A DNA stretch of 64,000 bases, taken from NCBI GenBank assembly GCA_017307505.1, contig JAFKEE010000018.1, positions 184,737 to 248,736 on the forward strand. The letters run 5' to 3'. Under the pieces are notes generated by a model. It was given only the letters and a program-made list of their open reading frames with translations, did not search any database and was not told where the DNA came from. A program made the translations under genes and the position numbers. This DNA comes from Acidobacteriota bacterium (lineage in GTDB: Bacteria > Acidobacteriota > Terriglobia > Bryobacterales > Bryobacteraceae). Below, one piece after another: positions 13,689-51,901 of the stretch (position 1 is its first letter; each line of letters begins with the position of its first letter).

Positions 13689-14033
13689 ATGGCAACTAAA
13701 TCGATCGATGCCGAGTGGAAGAAAGGCAGTGCCGAGCTGCTCATCCTCTCCTTACTGGAGGCCATGCCCCGTCATGGCTACGAAATCAGCAAGCTCATTG
13801 AGCATCGATCCGAAGGCGGCATCCGCTTCCATGCGGCCTCGCTCTACCCCCTGCTGTATCGCTTGGAGAAGCGAGGCTGGATTCAGGGACGCTGGGTCGA
13901 AAAGAGCGGGCAGCGCCGCCGCCGCTATTACCAGTTAACTCCGAGCGGCGTGAAAGTGCTGGCCGCCCAGCGCGAAGGTTGGCAGGCGTTTGTCGAGGCA
14001 ATCAGCCGGATCACGGGGGCCGAAAATGCGTGA
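13689..14033 (+). CDS. PadR family transcriptional regulator (pair 1)
   Basis: A 114-residue winged-helix repressor. The PadR core spans residues 14-95: AELLILSLLEAMPRHGYEISKLIE, then FHAASLYPLLYRLEKRGWIQGRW and the wing RRRRYYQLTPSG. PadR proteins of this short type regulate the permease gene they overlap with in Acidobacteria. The gene ends inside the start of the ADOP permease (8-base overlap), so the two are translationally coupled. No Shine-Dalgarno sequence precedes the ATG, which fits the very short leader predicted from the promoter just upstream. Confidence 0.9.
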   Translation: MATKSIDAEWKKGSAELLILSLLEAMPRHGYEISKLIEHRSEGGIRFHAASLYPLLYRLEKRGWIQGRWVEKSGQRRRRYYQLTPSGVKVLAAQREGWQAFVEAISRITGAENA

Positions 14034-20000: not shown

Positions 20001-22667
20001 TCACTCCCAGCGCAGCGTCTTCATCGGCTCGATCCGCGTGGCCCGCCGCGCCGGAGCCCAGCAAGCCAGTAGAGCCACTCCCACGAACAACACCGCCACG
20101 GCGATGAGCGTCCCCGGGTCGTTCGGCTCCACCTCGTACAAAAAGGATCGCAGCACCCGCGAGAACGCCAGCGCTCCGGCCAGACCTGCCGCCAGGCCGC
20201 CCGCGATCAGGCGCAGGCCGTCGGACAGAATCAGCGACCGGATTTCGCCTCGGCCGGCCCCCACCGCGGTCCGAATCGCAATCTCATGCCGGCGCGAGGC
20301 TACCGACAACGACAGCACGCCGTAGATGCCGACCAGCGTCAGCAGACAGCCAACCCCGGCGAAGCCAATCAGCAACCTCATGGCGAACGTGCGGCTCGCC
20401 AGCGAATCGTCGCGGATCTGGTCGAGCGTCTGGATGTGCTCCACCGCGGCATTCGGATTGACCGCGCGGAGGGCGGACCGGACAGCGGACGCCATCGCCA
20501 GCGGCTCGGTCTTGGTGCGAATCAGCAGATGTTTGGAGTAGGCGGAGTACTGCCAGAACGAGCCGTAGATCTCCGGCGCCGCGTGCAGCGTCAGGTCGTC
20601 CGTGCGGCCGTTCGCCACAACACCGACGATCGTGTTGGCCGGCTTATCCGGCCCGTTCATCCAGATTCTCTTGCCCAGAGCGGCCGTGCCGGGGAAGTAA
20701 CGGTCGGTGAAAGCCTGGTTGACGATCGCGACCGGCGGTGCCTGACCGTCGTCGTTCGAGCGGAAATCACGACCCTCCACCAGCGGCAGGCCGAGCATGG
20801 CGAAATAGCCCGGTGTGATCGAACGCAGCGGAAGCTCGGTCGCCTCCTTCGCACTGGCCGGCAGCGGCTGGCCTTCAATGATCACGCGCATCGGCCAGTT
20901 GTTACCGGTCAGCGGAACGCCCCAGGCATAGGCGGCCTGCTCCACGCCCGGCAATGCCTGCACGCGCGCCAGCGAACTCCGGTGAAAGTCGTCGGCTTTC
21001 ATCTGCACCGAAGTGACGCTCATGGTGAGAATGCGCGCGGTGTCGTAGCCGGAAGCCGTGTGCGCAATGTTGAGCATGGTGCGGATCAGCAGCCCCGCGC
21101 CGGCCAGCAGGACCAGCGTCAACGCCGTCTGCGCCATCGTCACCCCTCGCAGCAGCCTGCGTTCGCCGCGGCCCGCGGTGGCCTTGGGGCCCGCGCCCTT
21201 CAGCACTTCGTTCGGATCCAGGCGCGAGGCGCGCCATGCGGGGAAGAGGCCGGCGAGTAGGGCCGCCAGCAGCGCCAGGCCCAGGCCGAAGAGAAGCACC
21301 GGCCAGCCCGTGGTCACGGCGTCGAGCCTCGGCACCGCGTGTCCGCCGATCAGCTGGAACGTGCGCACCGCGCCAAACGCGAGGCCCGCTCCAAGAGTTC
21401 CGCCGGCCAGCGCAAGCACAAGGCATTCTGTAGAGGCCTGGCGGAAGAGCCCGGCCCGGCCGCCGCCCAGGGCGGCGCGCACCGCATACTCCCGCTGGCG
21501 CCCCAAACCGCGCAGCAGCAGCAGGGCCGCTACGTTTCCGCAGGCAATCAGCAGCACCAGCGCCGCGGCCCCGAAGAGCGGCAGCAGGATGCGCTCGCCA
21601 TCGCGATTGTACTCGGAGGTGAGCGATTGAACGTTCGGCGTGAAGCCCGCGAAGTCGGGGTTCGTCTGGGCCTGCTGCTCGGTCAGCAGGGTGAGTTCGG
21701 CCTGCGCCTGCGCCGCTTGGAACCCCGGAGCCAGGCGGGCGACGATATTCCATCGCGGCCGTTTGAGTTCTTCCGCCTCCGAGCTGGGCGCGTACGGTGC
21801 CCAAATGTCCACCAGTCCGTTCTCGTCGTAGTTCGGCTCCTGCGCCACGTCGGGCGCAGGCAGGAATCGGACACCCGGCGGCATGACGCCGATGATCTGA
21901 ACCGGAGCCTTCTGGCGGTTGATGCGGACGGTTTGCCCCAGGATGTTGGGATCGCCGCCGAACCGGCGCTGCCACAGCTGATAGCCGATCAGCACGACCG
22001 GCGTGGCCGAGGGGCTGGCGTCCGAAGCAGCGAACTTGCGGCCGAGCATCGGTTCTATGCCTGCGACCGCGAAGTACTCGGGCGTCACCACCATACCTTG
22101 AAAGGACTCCGCGCCATCCGGCAGGATCAGGAAGTCGAAGACCCAGCGGTAAGCGGCAATGGACTGGATCGACTGCGCCGAGCGCTGCCACTCCAGCCAC
22201 TGCGCCGCGGCCCAGGGCCGCGCCCGCTCCTGCTGCTGGCCGTCTGTGCGCGCGGACGGGATGAGGACCAGCCGAGCCGCCTCGCGGTAGGGCGGCGGCG
22301 TGAGCAGGACGCCCCGGATCAGGCTGAAGACCGCCGCCGTTGCCCCGATCCCGATGGCCAGCGTCAACACGGTCACGGCCACAAAGCCCGGTGTGCGGGC
22401 TAGCGTCCGCGCGGCAATCCGGAAGTCGCGCGCCGCCGTCTCGATCCACTGCACGCTTCTCCGGTCCCGGTGTTCTTCTTTCATCTGCTCAATGCCTCCG
22501 AATCTCTGCCGTGCCGCCCAGCGGGCCTCTTCCGCCGGCAGTCCCGACGCCCGTGCATCCAGCTCTGCCATCTCCAGGTGCGCTTCGAGCTCTGCTTCCA
22601 GGTCCTGGTCTAGCCTCCGCCGCCGGACATGGGCCAGCACCCGCTCGATTCGGCCGCGCCAACTCAC
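20001..22667 (-). CDS. ABC transporter permease, ADOP family (pair 2)
   Basis: An 888-residue permease with the same plan as the other two ADOP proteins here: helical prefix (LDQDLEAELEAHLEMAELDARASG), first membrane segment (FVAVTVLTLAIGIGATAAVFSLIRG), MacB core, and an FtsX domain beginning LLPLFGAAALVLLIACGNVAALLLLRGLGRQREYAVRAALGG. A second core and FtsX domain end at ACWAPARRATRIEPMKTLRWE. I chose the GTG at 22667, whose GTGA overlaps the stop of the upstream PadR gene, implying coupled translation; the frame stays open further but has no better start. No ATPase gene is adjacent. The substrate is unknown. Confidence 0.9.
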   Translation of the reverse strand: MSWRGRIERVLAHVRRRRLDQDLEAELEAHLEMAELDARASGLPAEEARWAARQRFGGIEQMKEEHRDRRSVQWIETAARDFRIAARTLARTPGFVAVTVLTLAIGIGATAAVFSLIRGVLLTPPPYREAARLVLIPSARTDGQQQERARPWAAAQWLEWQRSAQSIQSIAAYRWVFDFLILPDGAESFQGMVVTPEYFAVAGIEPMLGRKFAASDASPSATPVVLIGYQLWQRRFGGDPNILGQTVRINRQKAPVQIIGVMPPGVRFLPAPDVAQEPNYDENGLVDIWAPYAPSSEAEELKRPRWNIVARLAPGFQAAQAQAELTLLTEQQAQTNPDFAGFTPNVQSLTSEYNRDGERILLPLFGAAALVLLIACGNVAALLLLRGLGRQREYAVRAALGGGRAGLFRQASTECLVLALAGGTLGAGLAFGAVRTFQLIGGHAVPRLDAVTTGWPVLLFGLGLALLAALLAGLFPAWRASRLDPNEVLKGAGPKATAGRGERRLLRGVTMAQTALTLVLLAGAGLLIRTMLNIAHTASGYDTARILTMSVTSVQMKADDFHRSSLARVQALPGVEQAAYAWGVPLTGNNWPMRVIIEGQPLPASAKEATELPLRSITPGYFAMLGLPLVEGRDFRSNDDGQAPPVAIVNQAFTDRYFPGTAALGKRIWMNGPDKPANTIVGVVANGRTDDLTLHAAPEIYGSFWQYSAYSKHLLIRTKTEPLAMASAVRSALRAVNPNAAVEHIQTLDQIRDDSLASRTFAMRLLIGFAGVGCLLTLVGIYGVLSLSVASRRHEIAIRTAVGAGRGEIRSLILSDGLRLIAGGLAAGLAGALAFSRVLRSFLYEVEPNDPGTLIAVAVLFVGVALLACWAPARRATRIEPMKTLRWE

Positions 22668-23017
22668 GGAGCCGCCTCCAGGAACCGCGCCACCAGCGCG
22701 TTGGCCTCCTCCCATTTCCGGACTTCGGCAGCCAACTGCTTCCCGCCGGCCTTGGTCAGGGAATAGAACTTCACCTTCCGGTTCGTCTCCGACAGGCCCC
22801 ACTCGGCCCGGATCCAGCCCTCCTGCTCCAGCCGGATCAACGCCGGATAGATGGCGCCCTGGCTTAACTTCAGCGCGTCGCCGGATACCTGCTCAATCCG
22901 CCGGGCGATGCGATAGCCGTTCATTGTCCCCATCGTCTCGAGGGTCTTCAGGACGAGCAGGTCCAGGGTTCCATAGGGAACTTCATTCCGTTGCTTAGAC
23001 ATGTCTACGTTAGACAT
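22664..23017 (-). CDS. PadR family transcriptional regulator (pair 2)
   Basis: A 117-residue PadR repressor: YGTLDLLVLKTLETMGTMNGYRIARRIEQ gives the first helices, LKLSQGAIYPALIRLEQEGWI the recognition part, and NRKVKFYSLTKAG the wing. It overlaps the permease gene by four bases. Two in-frame ATGs (23017 and 23002) lie in tandem copies of a 12-base palindrome. I chose the upstream one because it coincides with the predicted transcription start of the promoter at 23025-23053, which would make the message leaderless; no Shine-Dalgarno sequence is present. Autoregulation of the pair is strongly suggested. Confidence 0.88.
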   Translation of the reverse strand: MSNVDMSKQRNEVPYGTLDLLVLKTLETMGTMNGYRIARRIEQVSGDALKLSQGAIYPALIRLEQEGWIRAEWGLSETNRKVKFYSLTKAGGKQLAAEVRKWEEANALVARFLEAAP

Positions 23018-23053
23018 GTCTACAAATATGTGGCAACCCTTCCGGTCTGTCAA
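22996..23053 (-). promoter_or_regulatory. Promoter with tandem palindromic operator of PadR-ADOP pair 2
   Basis: TAGACATGTCTA is a perfect 12-base palindrome present twice, at 22996-23007 and 23011-23022, separated by three bases, so the centres are 15 bases apart. Directly upstream on the minus strand, TTGACA (complement of 23048-23053) and CATATT (complement of 23025-23030) are 17 bases apart. The palindromes therefore cover the transcription start and the first codons. Confidence 0.7.
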
Positions 23054-23147
23054 TGCTGTCGATAGAACCCGGGAGTCGTGTTTACCTGGGATAAACGCAG
23101 CGGGGGCTTTCGATCCTCCCCTTCGTCGGAGCCCGCCCCGGAACCGG

Positions 23148-24041
23148 TCAAAACACAGGAAATTCCGGCGGCAATGCTGCCTCCAGGTGGATGGGCTTCC
23201 CCGTAACGGGGTGACTGAACTTCAGAAACTGGGCGTGCAGGAAGTATCCGCCATCGCCGGGAAGGCCGGGCAGGTCTTCCAGGGGTTGGCCGGTTGCCCC
23301 GTACAACGGATCGCCAACCAGCGGATGGCCGATGGAGGCCAGATGGATCCGGATCTGGTGCGGGCGGCCCGAGTTCAGGCTCACGGCAAAAGTGGTCGCG
23401 TTGGCACTGCGGCCGATCACCTTGGCCACGGACTTCGACGCTTTCCCGCCTGCGTCGGCGGCCCACACGAGGCCCAGGCGCGGGTGCGGCACGAGCCCGA
23501 TCGGCGTGACGATCACATACTCATCTTCTTGCGCAATCCCTTGAGCCAGCGCCCGGTAGGTCTTCTCCACCTTGGGGCTATTCCAGTCCGCGGAGAGCCG
23601 CGAGGCCGCCTGCGAGGTCTTGGCGAACAGGACGATCCCCGTGGTACCCCGGCCCAACCGGTGGACCGGATTGGCAGCAGGGACCCGCTCCTGCACGAGG
23701 CGGAGGAGGGTGTTCTCCACAAAGCCGCCACCGGGCAGGGTAGGCAGCCCGCCGGGTTTGCTCACCGCCAGCACATGCGCGTCTTCATAGAGGACCTCAA
23801 ACGTCCGTGGACAGTCAGGCTCAACCCAAGGGGGCCGGTTCCAGACAAGCGTCTGTCCGGATTCGACTCGTTCCCTCCCGCTGGCAGGGATGCCGTTGAG
23901 AATCACTTCGCCTTGATTCAGTCTTTCCTGCCACACCTCCGCGGTGGAGTGGCTGTAAAGGCTGGCCAGGTGGGAGAGCAGGGTTTGCCCGTGATGCCGG
24001 CTGTCGATGACAGAGGTATAGGCATAACCCCGGTTGAGCAT
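23148..24041 (-). CDS. RluA-family pseudouridine synthase, usual catalytic Asp replaced by Gly
   Basis: A 297-residue homologue of RluA/RluD enzymes, which isomerise uridine in RNA. An S4-like start (QERLNQGEVILNG) is followed by the catalytic fold: EVLYEDAHVLAVSKPGGLPTLPGG near 82-104, then VHRLGRGTTGIVLFAK at 126-141, and GRPHQIRIHLASIGHPLVGDPLYG near 225. The usual motif is HRLD with the catalytic Asp; here residue 130 is Gly, encoded GGC. I recall plant PUS5-like relatives with HRLGRGTSG, so it may be a real subgroup rather than a decayed gene; the frame is otherwise intact. Activity is uncertain. Confidence 0.8.
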   Translation of the reverse strand: MLNRGYAYTSVIDSRHHGQTLLSHLASLYSHSTAEVWQERLNQGEVILNGIPASGRERVESGQTLVWNRPPWVEPDCPRTFEVLYEDAHVLAVSKPGGLPTLPGGGFVENTLLRLVQERVPAANPVHRLGRGTTGIVLFAKTSQAASRLSADWNSPKVEKTYRALAQGIAQEDEYVIVTPIGLVPHPRLGLVWAADAGGKASKSVAKVIGRSANATTFAVSLNSGRPHQIRIHLASIGHPLVGDPLYGATGQPLEDLPGLPGDGGYFLHAQFLKFSHPVTGKPIHLEAALPPEFPVF

Positions 24042-51559: not shown

Positions 51560-51901
51560 TTAGACGGCCTCCATGATGCGGGCGATGGCGACGCTCATGC
51601 GGTCGTAGCCGGCGCGTTCCTGAGCGAGGCGGCGGCGGCCGGCGGCCGTGACGCGGTAGTAACGGGCTCGGCGGTTGTTCGCCGTGACGGCCCATTCGGC
51701 CTCGGCCCATTCATTCAGCAGCAGTCGCTGCAGGGCAGGGTAGAGGGAGCCTTCGCCGACCTGAAGGACGCCTTCCGAGAGCTGCTCCAGCCTTTGGGCG
51801 ATGCCGTAGCCGTGCATTGGCCCGTGGGTTAGGGTCTTCAGGATGAGCATTTCCAGCGTGCCGGGCACGAGGTCTGGCGGAGGTGCGGGTTTCTTTCCCA
51901 T
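51560..51901 (-). CDS. PadR family transcriptional regulator (pair 3)
   Basis: A 113-residue PadR repressor: VPGTLEMLILKTLTHGPMHGYGIAQRLEQ, then LQVGEGSLYPALQRLLLNEWAEAEW and the wing NRRARYYRVTAAGRRRL. Unlike pair 2 it has a Shine-Dalgarno sequence, AGGAG (complement of 51911-51915), nine bases before the ATG. An inverted repeat overlaps that site and probably binds the protein. Its stop is three bases before the permease start. Confidence 0.9.
   Translation of the reverse strand: MGKKPAPPPDLVPGTLEMLILKTLTHGPMHGYGIAQRLEQLSEGVLQVGEGSLYPALQRLLLNEWAEAEWAVTANNRRARYYRVTAAGRRRLAQERAGYDRMSVAIARIMEAV

Follow-up and report, generated by a model that had tools for sequence, protein, structure and literature searches.

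Two in-frame ATGs, each set in the middle of the same palindrome, head a PadR-family regulator gene of a soil Acidobacteriota bacterium; they raise the question of what the palindromic element does and which of the two codons begins the protein. The gene lies in a 64,000-nt stretch of contig JAFKEE010000018.1, here called the window, on whose minus strand it overlaps the gene for an ADOP permease. Comparison with related loci indicates that the element is very probably the autoregulatory operator of PadR, heading a PadR-ADOP operon and predicted to lie over both the transcription start and the start codon.

Both proteins score above the curated cut-offs of the acidobacterial families, 129.5 bits against 101.8 for PadR (TIGR03433, padR_acidobact) and 809.8 bits against 622.3 for the adjacent permease (TIGR03434), and within this one operon the PadR stop and the permease GTG start share 4 nt. 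Nearly all relatives have a GGAG or GGAGG ahead of the permease gene, which suggests translational coupling of the two genes. A sequence search for solved structures returned only PadR-family structures as relatives of the PadR protein. TIGR03433 has 53 matches in the 9,385,101-base assembly, of which 46 exceed the cut-off; the closest paralogue (C34:65063) is 75% identical to the regulator considered here, and two more PadR genes of this family lie in the window, at 13722-14018 (+) and 51569-51865 (-).

Read along the minus strand from 23053 to 22996, the start region has the form TTGACA-17-CATATT-7-ATG(TCTAACGTAGAC)ATG, with each ATG mid-TAGACATGTCTA (Table 1). A sequence-only reading had described two copies of TAGACATGTCTA 15 bases apart, each with an in-frame PadR ATG, and a promoter ending 7 bases before ATG1. 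The copies are indeed exact, form a direct repeat and have no other exact counterpart in the assembly; both ATGs (ATG2 at 23002-23000) are in the PadR frame. The promoter is likewise borne out by the sequence and by a promoter search, in which TTGACA-17-CATATT was the sole promoter-like match in 22900-23250 (shuffles, mean 0.0). The TTG at 23053, the gene start in a mechanical list of open reading frames, is the -35 box itself. Among inverted repeats of the start region the best one reaches p = 0.01, the lowest value that 100 shuffles allow, and ATGT-CTAACGTAG-ACAT at 23017-23001 places PadR-consensus half-sites in a dyad with a spacing of 9.

Table 1. Features of the PadR-ADOP locus (positions in the window)
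Feature	Positions	Strand	Basis or comment
-35 box TTGACA	23048..23053	-	promoter search and relatives
-10 box CATATT	23025..23030	-	17-bp spacer; 7 nt before ATG1
Palindrome TAGACATGTCTA with ATG1	23011..23022	-	complete in few lineages only
Palindrome TAGACATGTCTA with ATG2	22996..23007	-	GACATGTC conserved in nearly all relatives
Conserved operator core ANNTGTCKNNNNNMGACANNT (predicted)	22999..23019	-	dyad axis midway between the ATGs; footprint, arm covariation, exclusivity
Third half-site TGTCTA (relatives: TGTCKA)	22996..23001	-	overlaps ATG2 and the Ser codon
ATG1, facultative start upstream of ATG2 (N-terminal extension MSNVD)	23015..23017	-	at the predicted transcription start
PadR-family regulator gene (TIGR03433)	22664..23002	-	112 aa counted from ATG2
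Recognition-helix Ser codon (KLSQGAIYPAL)	22862..22864	-	predicted reader of the fourth half-site base
ADOP permease gene (TIGR03434)	20001..22667	-	GTG start, GGAGG ahead

Relatives were drawn from whole genomes and 84,980 species representatives and aligned on ATG2 without gaps; the footprint set comprises 29 loci whose proteins are 63-100% identical, and 31 other loci entered the overall comparison. Counting from ATG2, the invariant or nearly invariant positions of the 29 loci are A-17, TGTC from -14 to -11 (one position 27/29) and G/T at -10 upstream; C/A at -4, GAC from -3 to -1 (one position 28/29) and ATGTC from 0 to +4 on the right; and G/T at +5 and A at +6 (28/29) downstream. The spacer between the promoter boxes drifts almost at random across the same loci. 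The conserved unit is a single inverted repeat between the ATGs, TGTCK-N5-MGACA (here ATGT-N9-ACAT), with its axis at -7; nearly every close relative keeps it, and the TGT-N9-ACA spacing is free of indels across the PadR subfamily. A third half-site, reaching from ATG2 into the Ser codon, is conserved together with the repeat, although the M-S codons account for part of the conservation over ATG2 and Ser. That Ser codon is TCG or TCT in all 29 loci, these two making up 40% of the other Ser codons. The four-half-site arrangement is found with no mismatch in G000, G005, G041 and G064 only, among 237 family genomes, and with one mismatch at L163/L108.

The arms also change together. The -10/-4 pairs of 32 loci are G/C in 22, T/A in five, G/A in three and T/C in two (Fisher p = 0.005, uncorrected for shared ancestry), and two loci, L152 and L154, carry TGTTG-N5-CAACA, with both arms altered. 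L106 and L115 are PadR copies, 80-90% identical along part of the sequence, whose upstream regions lack operator and ATG2; they are possibly rearranged or decayed copies. A subfamily member with an operator near-match (L109) sits in a metagenome-assembled genome labelled Cyanobacteria, by mis-binning or transfer.

Arm sequence follows the protein. In the recognition helix xL[S/N]QG, Ser accompanies TGTCK at 27 of 27 loci and Asn accompanies TGTTG at ten of ten, with zero exceptions, the loci not being phylogenetically independent; among operator near-matches, Ser goes mostly with C and Asn mostly with T or A. In its own genome the extended site, allowing at most one mismatch, occurs only at the present PadR gene and at the start of the closest paralogue, and the 21-bp core without mismatch falls at the same two places (reversed control, two matches), so that neither search added a regulon member. 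Across 250 relatives, 18 of 21 distinct sites lie at starts of the PadR subfamily, and the reversed pattern gives five hits; stray sites in three relatives (G083 C200, G036 and G239) lie away from PadR starts, fall within this reversed-control background and were set aside.

Three TGTTG-type loci (L062, L071, L075) have two operator-like repeats upstream of padR, one of them over the -35 TTGACA and the other with a Shine-Dalgarno sequence in its right arm (CAACAGGAG). Inspection by eye of the PadR subfamily treated here found no second operator of this kind over the -35 box.

The operator reading is preferred because conservation, arm covariation, helix-operator coupling and genome-wide exclusivity agree. 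The same four lines uphold the earlier proposal of a repressor site over the promoter start and start codon, with one amendment: the unit is not two independent palindromes but the inverted repeat between the ATGs. A PadR dimer would read TGTCK-N5-MGACA, centred 7 bp upstream of ATG2; once bound, it would block RNA polymerase and shut off both padR and the ADOP gene, because the operator overlaps the predicted transcription start. With the third half-site over ATG2 and, in the clade of this locus, a fourth upstream of ATG1, a second dimer could probably bind; the extra half-sites suggest a likeness to LmrR, which places two dimers on one site. PadR binding, repression, the transcription start, the ATG used and the inducer are all things that we infer; that the system behaves as an ordinary autorepressor, basically a familiar self-repression switch, is well supported.

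Known PadR operators share this plan. The consensus is an ATGT/ACAT dyad, with N8 in PadR-s1 and N10 in LmrR/lmrCD (PMC3506622, PMC5428041, PMC5050560), and the present site resembles both in its half-sites, in a dyad placed at the promoter and in its predicted autoregulation. It differs in a spacing of 9, neither the canonical N8 nor the N10 of LmrR, in half-sites extended to TGTCK/MGACA, and in that its right arm, and often its left, is a start codon of the regulator's own gene. A literature search, with most subscription journals outside its scope, found no paper describing operators of TIGR03433 regulators.

Many of the 46 paralogues of the genome have inverted repeats at their start: the repeat is significant in 23, compared with 8, 4 and 1 of 46 in control intervals. 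At L010, L016, L027, L033, L040 and other paralogues the repeats include the gene's own start codon; the L010 repeat reads CTCCCATAA-N5-TTATGGGAG. Short leaders look general as well, since each of the 26 TTGAC boxes found within 110 nt is 37-74 nt upstream of its gene's start, the starts being assigned by rule and the individual leader lengths thus approximate.

TTGACA or a one-base variant stands 36-46 nt before ATG2 in 26 of the 29 relatives, at 45-46 nt in a four-species clade that includes the present locus and mostly at 42-43 nt in the rest. With standard spacing, the predicted start in the clade coincides with ATG1 or adjoins it; elsewhere it would fall a few bases inside the operator, giving a leader of about 12-16 nt to ATG2. 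Because ATG1 is here the predicted point of transcription initiation, a leaderless or nearly leaderless message is probable. Complementarity to the Shine-Dalgarno sequence averages -2.4 kcal/mol at the PadR start and -8.2 kcal/mol (GGAGG) at the ADOP start of the same operons, with +0.3 kcal/mol before ATG2 of the present PadR gene. With little Shine-Dalgarno sequence before PadR and a strong one before ADOP, it seems that the ribosome site at the PadR start has given way to the operator.

It is about an even chance that transcription and translation both begin at ATG1, yielding a PadR of 117 aa from a leaderless message whose operator covers the promoter start and the start codon together. 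The promoter geometry fits, and the four closest loci keep ATG1 despite scrambled codons 3-4, at 7, 7, 7 and 6 nt from the -10 box; neither ATG is preceded by a Shine-Dalgarno sequence. The prediction that 9.7-19.4% of acidobacterial genes are leaderless (PMC3160421) gives it a setting, and the operon acuR-acuI-dddL of Rhodobacter sphaeroides, a leaderless autorepressor operon (PMC3017554), a precedent. Against it, 19 of 32 loci have CTG and three have GTG in place of ATG1; the geometry fits four species only; at L108 ATG1 is followed by an in-frame TAA; at L060 and L099 the -35 box is about 3 nt closer, and transcription would begin inside ATG1; and a predicted 5' hairpin lies over ATG1.

The AcuR operon is the closest parallel in layout: the repressor is the first gene, an operator inverted repeat overlaps the promoter, a Shine-Dalgarno sequence is lacking before the repressor and the downstream genes are better translated. 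AcuR, however, belongs to the TetR family, its operator TAATAGAC-N6-GTCTATTA lies upstream of the ATG rather than over it, and its leaderlessness is proven, whereas that of PadR is predicted. Lambda cI and Tn1721 tetR, which the same paper cites (PMC3017554), are also repressors with the start codon at +1, from families unrelated to PadR. Some E. coli mRNAs carry a 5'-terminal upstream AUG and a second start downstream (PMC4965119), as predicted here; in those, a Shine-Dalgarno sequence precedes the second start, whereas in the PadR message both ATGs lack one and the 5' AUG shares the reading frame of the gene.

The reading in which ATG1 is never used, and ATG2, as in most of the subfamily, begins the translation of a message with a leader of about 12-16 nt and no Shine-Dalgarno sequence, has a chance just short of even. 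ATG2 is the universal start of the PadR subfamily, with MSK as its common N terminus, and ATG1 is facultative: at position -15, where ATG1 has its A, 16 of the 29 loci have C, 10 have A and 3 have G, which identifies the operator, and not ATG1, as what is conserved. The closest paralogue, with CTG in that place, starts at MSKQ, and the stop between the ATGs at L108 points the same way. This account has to accept a PadR gene without a Shine-Dalgarno sequence before ATG2 and, in the clade, a predicted transcript start on ATG1, whose 5'-terminal AUG would compete. The open frame between the ATGs was rejected as a sign of ATG1 use: two codons are free, and the operator forbids most stops. A regulated choice between the two ATGs, as the sequence-only reading had suggested, loses its footing with ATG1 absent from most relatives and dead at L108.

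ATG1 is probably a by-product of operator symmetry, because a symmetric operator that contains ATG2 must carry ATGT 15 bp upstream: ATG2 would supply the right-hand ACAT, and full symmetry would demand the ATGT that creates an in-frame ATG1. It is unlikely that, in the clade, one element serves as operator, as transcription start and as both start codons, the first of them leaderless, with both ATGs read, two PadR N termini made and a 5' hairpin of this palindrome keeping synthesis of the repressor low.

Very unlikely is a palindrome that acts purely as a 5' mRNA hairpin hiding the start codons, with no protein operator. The predicted fold does contain a 7-bp hairpin that pairs ATG1 with the AU of ATG2, and changes in both arms would also keep a stem; but the advantage of the fold over shuffles is weak (z -1.9 here, +0.6 for paralogue C34), no such hairpin occurs in the lowest-energy fold of L058, and the invariant A-17, the third half-site and the Ser/Asn recognition-helix coupling are left unexplained. 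A 15-bp tandem duplication that carried an ATG by luck, its conservation owed to the protein N terminus, would account for the direct repeat and for MSK as the common N terminus but is extremely improbable and already largely ruled out by the footprint, coding constraint being rejected on the ground that the left arm stays conserved even when noncoding (in several relatives CTG directly follows an in-frame TAG), while the residues encoded between the arms vary freely, the Ser codon is limited to two forms and the site is exclusive in 9.39 Mb.

The autoregulatory operator thus predicted serves one branch of an acidobacterial regulator family with 46 copies in this genome. It comes with a predicted one-residue specificity rule, by which, at the fourth half-site base, Ser would read C and Asn would read T. 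That an extra start codon can arise from operator symmetry calls for caution in start-site annotation, and the locus offers a compact, testable example of a repressor whose start codon is predicted to form part of its own operator.
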